64,000 nucleotides of DNA from Myroides fluvii (GTDB taxonomy: Bacteria; Bacteroidota; Bacteroidia; Flavobacteriales; Flavobacteriaceae). The position numbers and the translations under genes are program-made. The notes below the pieces were generated by a model. It did not search any database and was not told where the DNA came from. It saw only the letters and a list, made by a program, of their open reading frames with translations. Of this stretch, positions 12,455-41,339 are shown piece by piece (within the stretch, counting starts at the first letter, position 1; every line of letters starts with the position of its first letter). The stretch is from NCBI RefSeq assembly GCF_009792295.1, contig NZ_CP039934.1, positions 2,872,501 through 2,936,500 of the forward strand, read 5' to 3'.

Positions 12455-14161
12455 TTATATATGATATAGTTGACTTAAAGGTAAAGATTGTGATGGTTGT
12501 ATAGCAACTGGTTTTTGATCAATGTGAATTTCATACGTTTCGTGATTCATTTCAATCTGAGGTCGAGCTGCGTTGTGAATTAAGTCTGATTTCTTTACTT
12601 CCCGTGTATTTTTTACAGGCATCAAGGCTTTTTCTACTCCTAGTTCTTGTAATCCACCAAAGTCAATGGCTTGTTGAGCAACAAATAAGGCAGAAATTTC
12701 TCCTACTACCTTTCCAAAAGTACCCCACATTGGGCGATACATATACGGTTGAGGTGTAGAGATGGAAGCATTCGGATCTCCCATACCCGCATAAGCAATT
12801 ATGCCTCCTTTGAGTACCATTTCGGGTTTAATGCCAAAGGCTGCAGGTCGATAAAATACTAAATCGGCCATTTTTCCCACTTCAATCGAACCAACATAGT
12901 CTGATATACCATGCGTTATCGCTGGGTTAATGGTATATTTGGCTACATAGCGCTTGGCTCTAAAGTTGTCGCTTGTCGTATCGGGATGCAGTGGACCAAA
13001 ATCTTTTTTCATCTTATCTGCAATTTGCCACGTACGGGTTACCACTTCACCAATGCGTCCCATTGCTTGAGAATCGGAACTCATCATGGAAATAGCGCCC
13101 ATATCATGTAGAATTCCCTCAGCTGCTATGGTTTGTTCGCGAATACGCGATTTGGCAAAAGCAAGATCTTCTGGGATATTTTTGTCTAAATGATGGCAAA
13201 TCATCATCATATCCAAATGTTCATCAATGGTATTGATGGTAAATGGATTTGTTGGAGTAGTAGAGGAAGGTAAGATATTGTCATATTCCACTACTTTTAA
13301 TAAATCAGGCGCATGTCCACCTCCAGCACCTTCTGTGTGATAGGTGTGAATCGATCGACCATTGAAAGAATTCAAGGAGTCCTCAACAAATCCTGCTTCA
13401 TTTAAGGTGTCTGTGTGAATACAAACTTGAATATCAGCTTCATCAGCAACTTCTAAACATTTATTCAAAACATAAGGTGTACTTCCCCAATCTTCGTGAA
13501 TTTTCATTCCACCAGCACCCGCTGTGATAATTTCATTTAAAGCCGTTGCACTTGAGCTATTCCCTTTGGCTAAAAAGATAAAGTTTACTGGAATCTTATC
13601 CGTTGCTAATGCCATGCGTTGCAAATGCCAAGCTCCAGATGTACAGTTCGTCGCTAAGGTTCCCGCCGCAGGACCTGTTCCTCCACCTACAACAGTTGTT
13701 GTTCCCGATTGTAGCGCTACATCAAATTGTTGCGGACAGATGTAATGTACGTGTGTATCAATCGTTCCTGCTGTTACAATTAAATTTTCACCGGCAATGT
13801 ACTCTGTACCAACACCAACAATCATATCGGGTGAAACTCCATCCATCGTCAAGGGGTTTCCCGCTTTTCCAATCCCAACAATACGGCCATTTTTAATTCC
13901 GATATCTGCTTTTACAATTCCCCAATGATCTAGAATAATAGCATTAGAAATAACGGTATCCAGCACTTGATCTTTGGTTGCTAAAGGATGTTGTCCCATG
14001 CCATCTCGCACTACTTTTCCTCCTCCAAAGATAAGCTCGTCTCCATAGGTGGTGTAGTCTTTTTCAACTTGGATCCACAAATCAGTATCCGCTAGGCGTA
14101 TTTTATCTCCTGTTGTTGGACCGAAGTAGCTTGCATATTCTTTACGTGATATTTTTTTCAT
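12455..14161 (-). CDS. ureC: Urease subunit alpha
   Basis: Catalytic subunit of the nickel enzyme that hydrolyses urea to ammonia and carbamate in the cytoplasm. From ATG 14161 it has 568 residues, the normal length; the frame is open to 14194, but those 11 residues are not family-like and would overlap ureAB. All nickel-site residues are present: H137 and H139, K220 (the Lys to be carbamylated, GGMKIHEDW), H249, H275 and D363, plus the flap pair C322-H323. It therefore looks active. It starts 19 bases after ureAB and ends at a terminator, so the operon is ureAB-ureC only. Confidence 0.97.
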
Positions 14162-14180
14162 TTTTACTTCTTCGTTTAGA

Positions 14181-14804
14181 TTAAATAGAACCATTTATTT
14201 TACCTGTGAAACCGTGAATGATTTTGTCTCCACCATATTCAACAAGGTCAATGGTTTCTTCAATACCAGGCATAAAGCGAACGGATAAACCGGAGGCAAT
14301 ATCCAAGTGATATCCTTTGGTTTGTTCTCTGTCAAAAGACAAAGCCGGGTTTGATTCATAAAAATGGAAGTGAGACCCCACTTGAACAGGACGGTCCGCT
14401 GTATTGATCACTGTGATGCGAATGCGTTTTCTTCCCTCAGATAAAACAAGGTCATCTGTAGCAAAAGCGTAAGCACCTGGTATAGGATGATTAGATGAAG
14501 TATAGGGAATTGGGTTGTTGAGGGACACCAGCTTTGTTCCGTCAACAAACATAGCCTCTACTTGTACTTGCTCTAGTAATTCAGGAACTCCTGGCATAAC
14601 ATCCTCACTCGTCAACAATTGATTGCATTCTCCAATTAACTGCTGCACCGTTTTTCCCTCTCTTGCGCCTTCGATGATATGTCCGGATAGATACGCAATA
14701 GCTTCTGGATAACTGAGTTTTAATCCTTTTTCTTTTCTATTTTTAGCGATAATTGCCGCAAATAAAAGAAGCATTTTCTCCTTTTCTTGGTGAGTTAAAT
14801 ACAT
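14181..14804 (-). CDS. ureAB: Fused urease gamma-beta subunit
   Basis: 207 residues combining the two small urease subunits. Residues 1-100 are the gamma subunit ([11 protein letters not shown] start, [20 protein letters not shown]) and about 104-207 the beta subunit ([28 protein letters not shown]). A gamma-beta fusion is known from Helicobacter UreA; this one is shorter because it lacks the C-terminal extension. I choose ATG 14804 because the upstream ATG at 14825 overlaps the -7 element. UreE, UreF, UreG and UreD, needed to insert nickel, are not encoded next to it. Confidence 0.95.
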
Positions 14805-34616: not shown

Positions 34617-35270
34617 ATGAAGAAGAAAATAATAGCTATGATTCTTTTTGTATTCGTTACAAGAAACATACAAGCACAAGAAAATGTAGGAATTGGTACT
34701 GTAGAGCCTCATCAATCGGCTTTGTTGGACCTGGATGCTTCTGATAAAGGAGTTTTGTTTCCAAGAGTAGCCTTGAGTGAAGAAACAGTCTTAGCAGGCG
34801 GTTCAAATCCTATAGGCGTTGTTGTATTTAATAATGGAGAAGGAAGTATTTCGACCAAAGGGTTTTATTTTTGGTCGGGAAATCGTTGGGAGTTATTGGC
34901 TTTAGATTCGACCTTAACGGAAGAAATTGAGAAAATAAATCAAAAGATACAAGGATTGCAATTTCCAGCAATAAGTGAGCAATGGATATATATGCCTGCT
35001 TTTCCGATTAAAATGCATGAAGCCTCCGAACAGAAAGTGTATTTATATGATGAATATAGCAAACAATTAGGGGACACAAGTGGCATGACTATTTGGGAGG
35101 AAAACGAAGTGAAGTTTGTCGTAACAGGATATGATGTGGCATCCTTTAATACCGTACCTACTATTATAACCGAAAATGGTAGACAGTATCTCCTGTATAA
35201 GTCAAATGTAAATAAAATGACCGCATCAAGTTATTTGAACATAATTATAGTGAAAAATAATGAAGACTAA
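34617..35270 (+). CDS. Secreted protein with a tail-fibre-like N-terminal segment
   Basis: 217 residues from ATG 34617, with a signal peptide (MKKKIIAMILFVFVTRNIQA). The mature start ENVGIGTVEPHQSALLDLDA and the following GVLFPRVAL are typical of Bacteroidetes surface proteins whose N-terminal segment resembles phage tail-fibre heads. A short coiled coil (LTEEIEKINQKIQ) follows and then a beta-rich C-terminal half. It starts a three-gene operon and overlaps the next gene by 11 bases. Probably a surface component; no enzyme motif. Confidence 0.75.
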   Translation: MKKKIIAMILFVFVTRNIQAQENVGIGTVEPHQSALLDLDASDKGVLFPRVALSEETVLAGGSNPIGVVVFNNGEGSISTKGFYFWSGNRWELLALDSTLTEEIEKINQKIQGLQFPAISEQWIYMPAFPIKMHEASEQKVYLYDEYSKQLGDTSGMTIWEENEVKFVVTGYDVASFNTVPTIITENGRQYLLYKSNVNKMTASSYLNIIIVKNNED

Positions 35271-36753
35271 AATCTATTATATTCTTGGTTTATATACCTT
35301 GATTTCTTTTCCGTTTTCGGTGTTATATGCCCAGTTTCCCTATCATAATCAGATGATATCAGGGGATGATTTTAGCCCATTTTCAAATTCAGATAAAGTG
35401 GATTTTAAAACATATGGTGCTGAGTTAACTACCAAAGAAAATCAAACAAAAGGTTTTTTTCTGAATGATCTAGTGTTTGCAAACGATCGTGGCTTTGTTC
35501 TTCGTTTTGAATATGTTATGACTGGAAAGGGACCTGGAACACCTTTTGGTGCGGGAAATGGTCTTGCTTTGGTTTTATTTGATGGTAGTGTTGATAATCC
35601 TGCTATGGGAGCATCGGGATCGGGCATTGGATATAGTTATCGTAAGGCAACAAGTTCGGGAAATGCTGTTAATGGATTAACCAAGGGTATGCTAAGTATT
35701 GGACTTGATTTATACGGTGATTTTAAAAGTCGTATTATTAATCCAGAAGAATTTAGAAATGGAATCTATACTAATGGAAGAGAAGGGAATCATGTGACAG
35801 TTCGTGGTCAAGGAGATGGATTAGCAGGATATCCTGTATTGATTTCTCAAAGTGTTTGGGATATCGGCCAAAGATATCAACTAGATGCGGAAACAGGAGC
35901 ATATTCAACGACCTTTGATGCTCCTGATAATAAAGGATTTTCGTTTAAGTTAAGAGAAAATGAACGTGATAATGAAATGGATAGCAATGTTGGTTTTGGA
36001 CATCTTTCGTATAGAAGAGTCGAAGTAAGCATGTTGCCAGGCAAGATGAATGCGTTATCAGGTTTTTTTTTAAACGTTGATATTGTACATGGTAGTGAAA
36101 CAAGTCGAGTAATAAACTCTTATTTTATTCAGACTAATGCACTTCTTATTTATAATGAAGCGCAAACCAACACTGTTGATGCATTGGTCATGAATCATGT
36201 TGTACTGCCGCAAACATTTAGAATTGGATTTATAGGGGCTACTGGATCGGCCTATCAGAAAAATATTGTTCGAAATATCAGTATTTACCTTCCCTTTTCT
36301 CCTTCAGTTAAAACAGTAGAAGTGGATCAAGTGTGTAAAGATGATGCTACCATACTTGATGTTTTGGAACATAGTGTAGGTTTTAATTCTAATTTGTATT
36401 CAAAAGGAGAAAACTTAGATGATTTAGGTAAAAAAGAATATTTAGATCCCTATAGTTTTCAATTTACAACTTTAGTCAATGGGGAATTTGTAAAGACAAC
36501 TGAACCCTTTATTGCAGTAACAAGTAATGGGCGTTATGAATATAATCCAGTTACTATGCAAGTGGAATTTGTGCCTAAAATCGGGATGGTAGCAAAAGAA
36601 GATCAAGTTTATTTTAATATCAAAAATAAGAAAAGTATCCAAGGAAATACTGATTTAGGTGGTGAACAGTTTCGATCAAATAATGCCATGATAAAATTAA
36701 ATTTCACATACAATTGCAATGATATTATTATGGTAAATGGTAACTCTATTTAA
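35260..36753 (+). CDS. Secreted L-type lectin-like protein, paralogue 1
   Basis: 497 residues with a signal peptide ending VLYA. Residues 25-345 resemble the legume/L-type lectin sandwich (GNGLALVLFDG, SGIGYSYRK, LTKGMLSIGLDLYGDFK, RNISIYLPFSP). Residues 350-497 form a Bacteroidetes-type beta domain with GFNSNLYS, YEYNPVTMQVEFVPK and YFNIKNKKS. No type IX secretion sorting domain at the C-terminus. Probably binds glycans at the cell surface (inference). Confidence 0.7.
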   Translation: MKTKIYYILGLYTLISFPFSVLYAQFPYHNQMISGDDFSPFSNSDKVDFKTYGAELTTKENQTKGFFLNDLVFANDRGFVLRFEYVMTGKGPGTPFGAGNGLALVLFDGSVDNPAMGASGSGIGYSYRKATSSGNAVNGLTKGMLSIGLDLYGDFKSRIINPEEFRNGIYTNGREGNHVTVRGQGDGLAGYPVLISQSVWDIGQRYQLDAETGAYSTTFDAPDNKGFSFKLRENERDNEMDSNVGFGHLSYRRVEVSMLPGKMNALSGFFLNVDIVHGSETSRVINSYFIQTNALLIYNEAQTNTVDALVMNHVVLPQTFRIGFIGATGSAYQKNIVRNISIYLPFSPSVKTVEVDQVCKDDATILDVLEHSVGFNSNLYSKGENLDDLGKKEYLDPYSFQFTTLVNGEFVKTTEPFIAVTSNGRYEYNPVTMQVEFVPKIGMVAKEDQVYFNIKNKKSIQGNTDLGGEQFRSNNAMIKLNFTYNCNDIIMVNGNSI

Positions 36754-36759
36754 AAGTAA

Positions 36760-38277
36760 ATGCATATGGAAAGAGATAGAAGTATAACAATTAAAATAGT
36801 CTTGCTTATTTTGTGTTTATCCAATAATTTGGAAATCTTTGCACAATACCCTTACTTTAATTCAGGACAGCAAGCGGATGCTTTTACTTTGTTGGGTGAA
36901 AGTAGATCTGGATTAGTTACGTACAGTAAAAATGGAATTAAACTATTAGATGCTCAAAATCAATATTCAGGAGTGTATCTGAATGATTTGAGTTTCACAA
37001 CAGAAAAAGGATTTATTTTAGAATTTGAATTTGGGTTGGATATAGGGAGAATGGAGGAGGATAAATATGGAGATGGTATTGGTATGGTTCTTTTTGATGC
37101 TGCTGAATCCAATCCTAGTCTAGGAGATAAGGGAGGTGCTTTAGGGTACGCACATACTCAGAAGTATTCTGGTGTACATACAGCAGGTTTTACTAAAGGT
37201 ATTTTCGGATTGGGATTAGATTTATATGGAAATTATAAAAATAGAATAAGAGGAGGAAGTGAAATAAGAAACGGTATAACAGAGATAAAAGATGGAAATT
37301 TTGTCGTTTTACGAGGTCCCTATAATCCGAGTAATCCCTATGAAGGTTATCCCGTTCTTTTTGCCATAGGAACAAGAAAAAATACAAACCTATATTTGAA
37401 TCGCAGTACAGGGCAAGCTATAAGTAAGCAAAAAGGATTTGTTGGACAACGATTTAGCCTTCGAAGTGCGGTAATGAACGCTAAACCAGGCGATATAGGA
37501 TATCGAAAAATTCGCATAGCTTTTGTGCCTGGACAAGATGATTATACTAGACAACAAGGTTTTTTTATTTTTGTAGATATAATAAATGGGATATATAATT
37601 CTTCTATAATAAAAAATTACTTTGTCCCAAAATCAGGAAGTATTAAGTATAAGGAAGAATTAATTCAAGGATTGCAAACTTCAGAAATTAAAAATTTAGG
37701 ACTGACTATTCCCACAACAATGAAGATGGGTTTTACCGGAGCAACAGGGGCAGCTTCTATTCGAGCCCATATTCGAAATATTTCGTTGAGTTTGCCTTTT
37801 TCACCTGTGGTGCAAGATATTGTTATTCCCGATGTAATCTATGATAGACCCTTTGTAAGTAAACCTTTATATAGCGCAATAGGATATGATTCGAATGTGT
37901 ATTCGGTATTAAACCCACCTAGCGAATCTATTTTGTTTTTAGATTTATCTTCATTTCGATTTAAAGTGTTTGATGATAAAACAAAAAGTTATGTTGTTAA
38001 TACAGATCCATTTAAGTTGGAGGTGCCTAAAGTAGGAACGTTTACCTATGATACTGATACTGGAGAAGTGACATTTGTACCTGTGGAAGGATATAGAGGA
38101 AGTTCTTATACGTTTTATTACGATATAAAAAACAAACGCCCCGCTACAGGGGTAGATATTAGTACGGAAGAATACAGATCAACAACGGCCTCCGTAACCT
38201 TAAATTTTACGGATGAAATTCCACTCTATCGCAATCCACCTCTATTAGTGAATAAAGGAGTGAATAAAGTACAGTAA
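36760..38277 (+). CDS. Secreted L-type lectin-like protein, paralogue 2
   Basis: 505 residues; the signal peptide runs from the start (a second ATG is at 36766) to about residue 29 (LEIFAQ). It parallels the previous protein along its length: GDGIGMVLFDA, GGALGYAHT, FTKGIFGLGLDLYGNYKNRI, RNISLSLPFSP, then a C-terminal beta domain with GYDSNVYS, FTYDTDTGEVTFVPVEGYRG and YYDIKNKRP. It starts 6 bases after the previous stop and ends at a bidirectional terminator. The two are an ancient tandem duplication. Confidence 0.7.
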   Translation: MHMERDRSITIKIVLLILCLSNNLEIFAQYPYFNSGQQADAFTLLGESRSGLVTYSKNGIKLLDAQNQYSGVYLNDLSFTTEKGFILEFEFGLDIGRMEEDKYGDGIGMVLFDAAESNPSLGDKGGALGYAHTQKYSGVHTAGFTKGIFGLGLDLYGNYKNRIRGGSEIRNGITEIKDGNFVVLRGPYNPSNPYEGYPVLFAIGTRKNTNLYLNRSTGQAISKQKGFVGQRFSLRSAVMNAKPGDIGYRKIRIAFVPGQDDYTRQQGFFIFVDIINGIYNSSIIKNYFVPKSGSIKYKEELIQGLQTSEIKNLGLTIPTTMKMGFTGATGAASIRAHIRNISLSLPFSPVVQDIVIPDVIYDRPFVSKPLYSAIGYDSNVYSVLNPPSESILFLDLSSFRFKVFDDKTKSYVVNTDPFKLEVPKVGTFTYDTDTGEVTFVPVEGYRGSSYTFYYDIKNKRPATGVDISTEEYRSTTASVTLNFTDEIPLYRNPPLLVNKGVNKVQ

Positions 38278-38356: not shown

Positions 38357-39649
38357 TTATAATTGGAAAGCTTGTTTAATATCGGCTACTCGGTCTAGTT
38401 TTTCCCAAGTAAACAATTCAACTTCCATTTGTTTGGTTTCTCCTCCTGGTCTTGTAAAGGTTTTTGTAACCACTTGTGGTTTGCGCCCCATGTGTCCATA
38501 AGCAGCTGTTTCGCTGTAGATTGGGTTGCGTAGTTTTAAGCTTGTCTCAATAAAGTAAGGACGTAAATCAAATAACTCACTTACTTTTTTCGCAATTTCA
38601 CCATCCGTTAAGTTTACTTTTGAGGTACCATAGGTATTAACGTAGATTCCCGTTGGTTTAGCAATACCAATAGCGTATGAAACTTGTACCAATACTTCTT
38701 CTGCAACACCTGCTGCAACAAGGTTTTTAGCAATGTGACGGGTTGCATAAGCTGCACTTCGGTCAACTTTACTCGGATCTTTTCCTGAGAAAGCACCACC
38801 ACCATGCGCGCCTTTTCCTCCATAGGTGTCTACGATAATTTTTCTTCCTGTTAATCCAGTATCCCCGTGTGGTCCTCCAATGATGAACACACCTGTTGGG
38901 TTGATTAAGTATTCAATTTCTTCGTTGTTTTGGAACAAATATTCATATTGCGGATATTTAGCCAATACGCGAGGAATTAAAACAGCGATGATATCTTGTT
39001 TGATTTTAGCTTGCATGGCTTGCTCTGCAGCTATTTTAGCTTCCATACTAGCATTTTCTGCTTGAATAAAATCATCGTGTTGTGTCGATAATACAATCGT
39101 TACAATGCGAACCGGTTTATTGTCGTCATTATACTCTAATGTAACCTGGCTCTTCGCGTCTGGACGCAAATAAGTAACGGCTGTATTTTCTCGGCGGATT
39201 ACCGCTAATTCTTGTAATAATTTATGCGATAAATCTAAGGCTAGCGGCATGTAATCTTCCGTTTCTGTCGATGCGTAACCAAACATCATTCCTTGATCAC
39301 CTGCTCCTTGATCTTCTTTACTCGCGCGCTCAACACCTTGACTGATTTCTGCCGATTGTTCGTGAATAGCTGATAAAATACCACACGAATTACCGTCAAA
39401 CATATATTCACTCTTCGTATATCCAATCTTGTTGATTACATCGCGAGCAATTTGTTGTACGTCTAAATAGGTTTTTGATTTTACTTCCCCAGCAAGGATT
39501 ACTTGCCCTGTAGTAACTAAAGTCTCACATGCTACTTTTGATTCTAAATCAAAAGCCAAGAAATTGTCAATTAAAGCATCTGAAATTTGATCTGCAATTT
39601 TATCAGGATGTCCTTCACTTACAGATTCCGATGTGAAGTAATAAGCCAT
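38357..39649 (-). CDS. metK: S-adenosylmethionine synthetase
   Basis: Makes S-adenosylmethionine from methionine and ATP in the cytoplasm. 430 residues, about 45 longer than the E. coli enzyme, normal for Bacteroidetes. The three-domain signatures are present: [20 protein letters not shown] near the start, the hexapeptide GAGDQG(M), and [20 protein letters not shown]. Its leader (39650 to about 39770) contains a SAM-II-like fold, so expression is probably controlled by its product. It is monocistronic and ends at a shared terminator. Confidence 0.97.
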
Positions 39650-39677
39650 ATGGTATGTTTTTTAAAATGTTTAAAAA

Positions 39678-39762
39678 AGAGGAAATGGCTAAAGTGAAGA
39701 TACAATATATTCTGCTTTAGCATTTTTTACCGAGGTTGCAATCAGTACAAATTTTTCCTCCT
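39678..39762 (-). ncRNA. Putative SAM-II-class riboswitch of metK
   Basis: On the minus strand: P1 GAGG (39760-39757) pairs with CCTC (39735-39732); the 21-nt loop between ends in TTGCAA and contains AATTTG and CTG; after P1 comes an A-rich 10-nt linker, then GCTAAA and GCAG (to 39712). Loop CTG-TTGCA can pair with TGCTAA-CAG, giving the H-type pseudoknot of SAM-II, which in the known metX and metA aptamers also uses TTGCA and GCTAAA. The GCTAAAG (39721-39715) can alternatively pair with CTTTAGC (39694-39688), and GAGGAAA with TTTCCTC (39685-39679) before a T6 run, a plausible expression platform. Product feedback on metK is inference. Confidence 0.6.
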
Positions 39763-39775
39763 ATGAAATTCACTG

Positions 39776-39808
39776 CAAATGTATCAACTATTTTTTGAAT
39801 CTATACAA
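39776..39808 (-). promoter_or_regulatory. Likely metK promoter
   Basis: TACATTTG at 39783-39776 (minus strand) and TTG at 39808-39806; spacing 22. Transcription would begin near 39769, just upstream of the riboswitch P1 arm. Confidence 0.45.
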
Positions 39809-39998
39809 ATTTTATCCTTTTTTATATTCCTCTTAACGATTATGTGATTTTTACTAATCCCGAGCAAATACACCTTGATATGAATTGGATATGAAACATA
39901 AGAGCATATAAAATCCTTAAAAACTGTTATGTTTTTTTGAAATTGATAAAAATATGGTGGTTTATTGCTTTATTTACATTTTAAAAGCCATTTTTAGT

Positions 39999-40006
39999 TA
40001 CATTTG
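39999..40006 (+). promoter_or_regulatory. -7 element of the carbonic anhydrase pair
   Basis: TACATTTG, 33 bases before ATG 40039. Confidence 0.5.
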
Positions 40007-40038
40007 TTTCGAATTATTATCGTATTAATCGCGTAAAA

Positions 40039-40677
40039 ATGAGACTACATAATATAGACGATCAAAAGTCGATGACTCCGCAAATGGCGCTGTCTTTTTT
40101 AAAAGAAGGGAACAAACGCTTTGTTGAAAACCTGAAAGCCCATGCTAATTTACTAGAACAAGTAAATGAAACCAAAGAAAGCCAATTTCCTTTCGCTATT
40201 GTTTTAAGCTGCATTGACAGCCGTACGTCAGCTGAATTGATCTTTGATCAAGGATTAGGGGATGTGTTTAGTACGCGTATTGCCGGAAATGTATTGAATG
40301 AGGATATTATCGGTTCAATGGAATTTGCTTGTAAACTCGCAGGTTCAAAATTGATTGTTGTCTTAGGACATTCGCACTGTGGCGCAATTACAGGAGCTTG
40401 TAAAGAGGTGAAATTAGGGTATTTAAGTAACTTATTAGCCAAAGTTGAACCAGCCGTGGATCACGTGAAAAGATATTACCCCGATTTAGATATTAAATCA
40501 AAAGAAGGAGTGGATATGGTTGCCTTTTACAATGTAGAATACACCATCAATCACATCCTAACTAAAAGTAATGTCCTTTGCGAAATGTATGAAAAAGGAG
40601 AAATCGGCATTGTTGGGGCTTTCTATAAAGTAGAAACAGGAGAGGTAGATTTTGTCAAAGAAATGTTTGTTGAATAA
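40039..40677 (+). CDS. Beta-carbonic anhydrase 1
   Basis: 212 residues; interconverts CO2 and bicarbonate. Zinc ligands C58, H111 and C114 with the Asp-Arg dyad D60/R62 (SCIDSRTSAE, GHSHCGAI). No signal peptide, so cytoplasmic. It differs from the next gene's product throughout its length (SRTSAE here, SRVPAN there), so the pair is an old divergence rather than a recent duplication. First gene of a two-gene operon. Confidence 0.93.
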   Translation: MRLHNIDDQKSMTPQMALSFLKEGNKRFVENLKAHANLLEQVNETKESQFPFAIVLSCIDSRTSAELIFDQGLGDVFSTRIAGNVLNEDIIGSMEFACKLAGSKLIVVLGHSHCGAITGACKEVKLGYLSNLLAKVEPAVDHVKRYYPDLDIKSKEGVDMVAFYNVEYTINHILTKSNVLCEMYEKGEIGIVGAFYKVETGEVDFVKEMFVE

Positions 40678-40688
40678 AAAAAGAAGTT

Positions 40689-41339
40689 TTGAAACACAAC
40701 GAATTTTACAAAAAAATATTAGAAAATAACAAAGCTTGGGTAGAAGAAAAACTAGCCATTAATCCAGAGTACTTTAAGCGCCTTTGTCACAGGCAAACGC
40801 CACCTGTTTTGTGGATTGGTTGCTCAGATAGTCGCGTGCCAGCTAATGAGATTATCGGTGCCGAACCAGGGGATGTATTCGTTCACCGAAATATCGCCAA
40901 TATGGTCATCCACTCAGATATGAATATGTTGAGTGTATTGGATTATGCGGTAAACATTCTTAAAGTAACCAATATTATTGTCTGTGGCCATTATGGCTGT
41001 GGTGGAGTAGAGGCCGCAATGAAAAACGAATCATACGGACTGATTGACAACTGGATTAGACACATCAAAACCGTTTATCGCTTGCACAATGTCGAGTTAG
41101 ATGGGATTGACGATACCACAGAGCGATTCAATCGATTTGTAGAGTTAAACGTTCAAGAACAAGTGTACGACCTAGCAAAAACATCGATCGTGCAAGGCGC
41201 TTGGGCAAGAAATCAAGACTTGAGTATTCACGGCTGGGTTTATGGGTTAAACTCGGGGTATGTGACCGATTTAGAGGTGAATGTAACGAGTAATCAAGAT
41301 CTTGACGAAGTGTATCAACTTCGATTTAAGAAAATTTAA
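40689..41339 (+). CDS. can: Beta-carbonic anhydrase 2, TTG start
   Basis: 216 residues of the Can (YadF) type. Zinc ligands C45, H101 and C104, dyad D47/R49 (CSDSRVPANEI, CGHYGCGGV). There is no ATG that would give the family's usual N-terminus; the reading frame begins with TTG at 40689, 11 bases after the first anhydrase's stop codon. Its stop codon overlaps that of the convergent LETM1-like gene in the four bases TTAA, and no hairpin separates them. Confidence 0.93.
   Translation: MKHNEFYKKILENNKAWVEEKLAINPEYFKRLCHRQTPPVLWIGCSDSRVPANEIIGAEPGDVFVHRNIANMVIHSDMNMLSVLDYAVNILKVTNIIVCGHYGCGGVEAAMKNESYGLIDNWIRHIKTVYRLHNVELDGIDDTTERFNRFVELNVQEQVYDLAKTSIVQGAWARNQDLSIHGWVYGLNSGYVTDLEVNVTSNQDLDEVYQLRFKKI

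Follow-up and report, generated by a model that had tools for sequence, protein, structure and literature searches.

The window analyzed here, that is, the whole 64,000-nucleotide (nt) stretch of Myroides fluvii DNA, carries on its minus strand the metK gene, together with a 5′ leader for which a previous reading of the sequence (the original prediction) had proposed a SAM-II-like riboswitch with a possible terminator switch. We reread minus-strand positions 39678-39783 and their flank, and found all motifs at the positions given in that prediction (Table 1). Its choice of metK as the target likewise holds: the product matches the Pfam domains and the NCBIfam model TIGR01034 (487 bits; cut-off, 309) of an enzyme that makes SAM, the sensed compound. 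The last base of a match to Rfam family RF01726 lies 58 nt upstream of where the metK start codon begins, and this RF01726 copy sits in the 5′ leader of a SAM/methionine gene. Divergent from metK lies a pair of carbonic anhydrase-like genes, at 40039-40677 (+; Pfam Pro_CA) and 40689-41339 (+; NCBIfam PRK10437, 250.9 bits versus a cut-off of 251); at locus L029 of the same genus, a protein much like the product of 40039-40677 starts at the same place. Convergent with metK are two tandem genes, 35260-36753 (+) and 36760-38277 (+), which by eye look alike and secreted, the latter weakly matching an L-type lectin model (24.7 bits; cut-off, 78.3).

Table 1. Features of the metK leader and gene in the window
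Feature	Position	Strand	Basis or remark
Promoter -7 box TACATTTG (TAnnTTTG)	39776..39783	minus	sequence; predicted transcript start near 39771
SAM-II long-loop aptamer, Rfam RF01726	39707..39766	minus	60.5 bits, cut-off 44
P1 5′ strand GAGG, target of anti-P1 strand	39757..39760	minus	covariation in 61 leaders
P1 3′ strand CCTC	39732..39735	minus	covariation in 61 leaders
Aptamer loop, 21 nt, 3′ end TTGCAA	39736..39756	minus	sequence
A-rich linker, 10 nt	39722..39731	minus	sequence
GCTAAA	39716..39721	minus	sequence
Pseudoknot 3′ strand GCTAAAGCAG, partner of loop CTGATTGC	39712..39721	minus	P2 as drawn in this analysis
Anti-P2 strand CTTTAGC, complement of GCTAAAG	39688..39694	minus	motif enrichment; invariant in 15 clade leaders
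AGCCAT, complement of metK start ATGGCT	39685..39690	minus	present in 15 clade genomes; predicted folding
Anti-P1 strand TTTCCTC, complement of GAGGAAA	39679..39685	minus	predicted folds; antisense to aptamer 5′ half conserved in family
T6 run (U6 of the original prediction)	39673..39678	minus	sequence
AU hairpin TTTTTTAAA-CAT-TTTAAAAAA; 5′ arm contains U6	39658..39678	minus	predicted in both states
metK start ATGGCT, sequestered in proposed SAM-bound state	39644..39649	minus	predicted folding
metK, methionine adenosyltransferase, 430 aa	38357..39649	minus	Pfam S-AdoMet_synt N, M, C; TIGR01034

A cmscan of the whole window assigned the leader to RF01726 (SAM-II long loop) at E = 3.8e-9, the 60.5 bits exceeding the gathering score of 44 and the model aligning end to end (positions 1-60 of 60), and this was the only RF01726 match in the 3.77-Mb genome. 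The covariance-model search suggested along with the original prediction thus returns a fit to a curated family, above its cut-off, that is closer than the label "SAM-II-like", and nothing for the two other families considered. More specifically, a search of 39500-40000 listed neither RF00521 (SAM_alpha, classical SAM-II) nor RF01826 (SAM-V) at E values up to 10, and neither was found in the genome, in a weak search in which control genomes also gave no match.

We take the SAM-II pseudoknot fold to be common to the window's aptamer and the classical SAM-II of alpha-proteobacteria (RF00521). The latter differs from the window in that here the proposed target is the start codon itself, in the expected absence of a Shine-Dalgarno sequence. 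In Sinorhizobium, SAM binding is predicted to cause termination at metZ and to hide the Shine-Dalgarno sequence of metA (PMC9373788). SAM-I/IV (RF01725) likewise lies upstream of metK in other Bacteroidota (L044, at 827-932, and L070, at 851-946, neither with an RF01726 match at the gathering score); it belongs to another Rfam family and clan than RF01726 and has no match in the window. SAM-II long loops (RF01726) were found in Bacteroidetes and marine samples by Weinberg et al. (2010; PMC2864571), whose Table 1 marks the family Y for RNA, cis-regulatory, and switch. The window's aptamer is the same in sequence and structure model, with Bacteroidetes in both, and we found no difference within the aptamer itself, whereas the window's downstream antisense strand lies outside the 60-position model. 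As RF01726 was already published in 2010 (PMC2864571), the aptamer, judged by its fit to that model, is a member of a catalogued SAM riboswitch family rather than of a new class, which settles where the metK leader belongs.

To follow the leader across relatives, 264 loci were scanned by a motif expression, of which 211 passed a distance filter and 207 had metK within 300 nt; these gave 206 distinct leaders, and in 202 of them the platform is no longer than 105 nt. All leader counts given here cover leaders matching this expression, and the set is not random, 100 places having been hand-picked from match lists. Among 80 named metK loci, 47 fell outside the 207, and Rfam scans of 40 of these 47 yielded 7 RF01726 and 2 RF01725 matches. 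For covariation, 61 leaders that were under 82% alike were aligned (alignment A1), drawn from 135 leaders without a linker insert. P1 (GAGG/CCUC) was paired in 100% of cells, with 2 of its 4 pairs changed on both sides, so that the pair whose conservation the original prediction had made a test covaries in relatives; the GCTAAA hexamer was likewise kept, in 206/206 leaders of a set for which the motif expression also allowed other hexamers. The pseudoknot P2, scored as drawn in this analysis (loop CUGAUUGC with GCUAAAGCAG), was paired in 96.3% of cells; of its 7 pairs, only 1 had changes on both sides, whereas 4 were invariant. On these grounds, the pseudoknot that characterizes RF01726 members is predicted here between CUGAUUGC and GCUAAAGCAG.

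Counting RF01726 matches at E of at most 0.001, own genome included, we found the aptamer in 52/60 relatives, 191/199 genus genomes, 187/199 family genomes (182 above cut-off), and 44/295 genomes of the class (38 above cut-off). Six genomes (G021, G069, G096, G225, G273, and G302) have two matches each. The genus was judged to be very probably Flavobacterium, as the metK start of a same-genus genome (L226) shares 95% identity with that of a named Flavobacterium locus (L052). Same-genus metK leaders L215 and L217-L231 carry about 44 nt extra between the P1 3′ strand and AAAAAATGCTAAA, which by eye resemble two stem-loops, and such Rfam matches span 101-109 nt; L030 and others have a shorter insert at the same position.

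The promoter of the original prediction, TAnnTTTG, is present as TACATTTG, and the box is conserved: 202 of the 206 distinct leaders have it in the 60 nt preceding P1, at a distance of 8-23 nt, as compared to a mean of 9.3 in mononucleotide shuffles. Because TAnnTTTG is described as the box of the flavobacterial main sigma factor, at position -12 to -5 (PMC9723704), the transcript is predicted to start only a few nucleotides before the aptamer. The same paper reports that the expression of five Rfam-predicted cis-regulatory RNAs was confirmed in F. psychrophilum. That the match is a decayed or chance one, with no functional riboswitch behind it, is hardly credible in view of its 60.5 bits, its presence in 191 of 199 genus genomes, and the conserved promoter and metK position, and we found nothing in its favor.

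Downstream of the aptamer, the leader contains strands complementary to the aptamer itself. The GCUAAAG:CUUUAGC and GAGGAAA:UUUCCUC helices are both present in predicted minimum-energy folds, so the competing pairings on which the proposed mutually exclusive states depend do exist in prediction. The fold of leader 39648-39775 beats 196/200 dinucleotide shuffles (z = -2.27), and that of the shorter piece 39670-39775 beats 192/200 (z = -1.85). Across leaders, the platform elements stand in the reverse order of their aptamer targets: the first, which is CTTTAG-like, is antisense to GCTAAAG; GCAATY or TCAAATY, antisense to the loop, comes next; and a pyrimidine tract complementary to GAGGAAA is last. 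In the 202 leaders, the duplex between aptamer 5′ half and platform has a mean z of -2.70, and 71% of leaders beat 95% of their own dinucleotide shuffles; the anti-GCTAAAGCAG duplex alone is weaker (mean z of -1.31; 35% of leaders beat 95% of shuffles). Sets of antisense motifs, picked after inspection of the leaders, were enriched as well, the anti-CTAAAG set occurring in 141/202 leaders versus 15.2 in dinucleotide shuffles and the anti-loop set in 146/202 versus 21.9; both occur together in 106 leaders, in antiparallel order in 106/106. When partners were swapped between close relatives on the metK tree, the own partner was favored in 55 of 76 pairs, the swapped one in 16, with 5 ties, the pairs not being strictly path-independent. 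This comparison replaced a Fisher test of CAAATC against loop type (33/69 versus 3/133), which we rejected as confounded by ancestry. In the window itself, the anti-P2 duplex is strong (0/60 shuffles as good) and the anti-P1/loop duplex modest (10% of shuffles as good), and the anti-P2 strand CTTTAGC does not change among the 15 leaders from the window's clade. RNAalifold on the 61 leaders recovered P1 and the loop helix and no antisense helix; we read this as an alignment failure in the variable platform, yet it counts as a negative result. Sequence comparison across the 202 leaders shows a strand downstream of the aptamer that is antisense to it, conserved and covarying, and we conclude that the competing fold is a selected feature. 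In a partial literature search, we met no description of an RF01726 expression platform.

How the competing folds might be turned into an output was, in the original prediction, a matter of termination. Its parts stand, in that the helices and U6 exist; as a general mechanism it is not supported, only 9/202 leaders having a T5 run in the 9 nt that follow the anti-P1 strand, 5 of these 9 in the window's clade. At least 6 T of 9 follow the anti-P1 strand in only 35/202 leaders, and at least 6 T of 10 follow the anti-GCTAAAG element in only 31/136; with T-run counts this low, we rejected the idea that an intrinsic terminator is conserved behind one or the other antisense element. A terminator scan of 39500-40100, limited to loops of 3-8 nt, found none. 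Going by these counts, a terminator is not the family's mechanism. For the window's clade alone, the unbound GAGGAAA:UUUCCUC stem before U6 could end transcription, with SAM binding preventing it. Both helices do stand in the minimum-energy fold with T6 directly after, and when the clade leaders are read directly, the anti-P1 strand is followed by a T5 run in 12/15 and by T4 in 14/15. Owing to these 12 T5 runs, we raised our estimate for a terminator slightly, and still consider it quite unlikely, because, in addition to the scarcity of suitable T runs in the 202 leaders: (i) T5 runs are common anywhere in platforms (128/202 leaders); (ii) the closing stem encloses a large multiloop; (iii) the T run is one arm of the AU hairpin, and leader L187 keeps a differently built AU hairpin with the T run absent; and (iv) a terminator in the unbound state would mean that SAM raises its own synthase, an unexpected feedback sign that the original account had left unmentioned.

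The reading that we prefer places the output at the metK start codon. At low SAM, the downstream strand would pair with aptamer pieces (GCUAAAG:CUUUAGC and GAGGAAA:UUUCCUC), leaving the start region more open and metK ON. With SAM bound, P1 and the pseudoknot would hold GAGG and GCUAAAG, and the freed AGCCAU would pair with AUGGCU across the AU hairpin, hiding the start codon and turning metK OFF at translation; we propose this start-codon step for the window's clade only. AGC is common to CUUUAGC (anti-aptamer) and AGCCAU (sequestor), so the two pairings would be mutually exclusive and the SAM-bound state OFF. That the RF01726 riboswitch near the predicted transcript 5′ end controls metK in this manner, with freed AGCCAU hiding the clade's start codon, is a model to which we assign a probability of about 0.5.

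The model draws on predicted openness of the AUG, for which the bound state was approximated by masking the aptamer and folding was done without pseudoknot or ligand. In the window, the AUG is predicted to be unpaired at 0.04 with the aptamer masked versus 0.40 with the aptamer strand available. An initial eight-member clade set had been chosen by AGCCAT itself (shuffles of these eight leaders gave an AUG unpaired value of 0.42 in the bound-state proxy), and it was later replaced by selection on the aptamer linker and the metK tree. The clade's aptamer linker occurs in 16/398 genus genomes, 14 of which have AGCCAT; the two linker matches without it (L275 and L279) lie outside the clade. Of the 14 linker-selected AGCCAT leaders, 13 are predicted to hide the AUG (unpaired ≤ 0.05), the exception being L278 (0.48); L187 is predicted to hide it, too. 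In a metK tree built from 221 loci, the smallest clade that includes these leaders comprises 22 tips, which correspond to 15 genomes after loci fetched twice are merged, all with AGCCAT, and L129 has AGCCAT elsewhere on the tree. Clade membership is defined among the fetched genomes, and a member with neither linker nor AGCCAT could escape. Overall, the start region is predicted to be hidden in the SAM-bound proxy in 14/15 clade leaders. AGCCAU and AUGGCU are invariant in the clade, so their pairing shows no covariation. An extension of the sequestor by CUUCACUU:AAGUGAAG (leader versus codons 10-13) was discarded, being confined to the window and its near sisters.

Invariance of the six bases could also have another origin: the antisense strand might merely set the SAM threshold, with some other output step, and the AGCCAU:AUGGCU match might be inherited by chance. 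The AGC shared with the anti-P2 strand fits such a reading, as does CAUU, which can extend the anti-P2 helix and may be kept for that reason. Complements of the six start bases occur in 11/202 leaders, against a mean of 4.1 and a maximum of 8 in 200 sets of re-dealt starts, which we also count in favor of this reading. Against it, 15 clade genomes keep AGCCAT while neighboring platform bases vary, CTTTAGCCATT being the longest invariant block of the clade's platforms, and we regard a threshold-only role as very doubtful.

Outside the clade, we found little sign of start-codon control. A general sequestor in all leaders was rejected because, in the 194 leaders outside the eight initially chosen, bound-state openness was no different from that of shuffles (0.428 versus 0.419); the free-minus-bound difference in these leaders was slight (0.051 versus 0.017 in shuffles; Wilcoxon p = 0.04). 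Pairing of the antisense strand with the start or coding region exceeded the shuffled level in only 91/202 leaders. In 135/202 leaders, the free proxy had a more open start region than the bound one, by a small amount (0.564 versus 0.534), and freeing any strand would have this effect. For these leaders, an OFF step via Rho or decay is possible. SAM binding would then free a C-rich, G-poor antisense strand that recruits Rho or an RNase, the leader being cut short or decaying, and the antisense:aptamer helix would be the protected ON state. Such recruitment would explain the leaders without start-codon occlusion, and the antisense strand does average 24% C and 9% G and folds little on itself (2.3 internal pairs expected when the aptamer is masked). 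An excess of C over G is, however, expected of any antisense to a purine-rich aptamer, and we judge this explanation unlikely.

Returning to start-codon occlusion, its direction can be compared with a second gene context. Another genus of the family has, at locus L150, an RF01726 copy (1501-1560) upstream of a gene at 1615-2886, which encodes O-acetylhomoserine sulfhydrylase (TIGR01326; 616.6 bits, cut-off 495.1), and the copy carries the same kind of antisense platform. SAM is expected to repress the O-acetylhomoserine sulfhydrylase gene, an argument for taking the antisense-paired state as ON. Besides mirroring the sensor, the conserved downstream strand may decide how open the start codon is. 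Extended to the phylum's riboswitches, the proposal would be that a downstream reverse complement of the aptamer acts as a built-in competitor, that in the clade the strand so freed hides the start codon in a Shine-Dalgarno-independent translational OFF state, and that the platform is family-wide and also precedes a methionine-synthesis gene; this wider statement is tentative, and we put it at somewhat short of even odds. Work on F. johnsoniae describes the phylum as lacking Shine-Dalgarno sequences, with structure near the start tuning initiation (PMC6847099). Translational control that needs no Shine-Dalgarno sequence, as the start-codon model predicts, agrees with that description. If the platform model is true, it would represent riboswitch translational control without Shine-Dalgarno pairing by ribosomes, for which the clade offers one specific six-base pair, AGCCAU:AUGGCU, for mutation.

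One further Rfam match was noted elsewhere in the window. RF02514 (5′ ureB sRNA) matches at 13717-14008 (+) with 89.4 bits, on the strand opposite a urease alpha-subunit gene (12455-14194, minus strand), and this match may only mirror the conserved urease coding strand.
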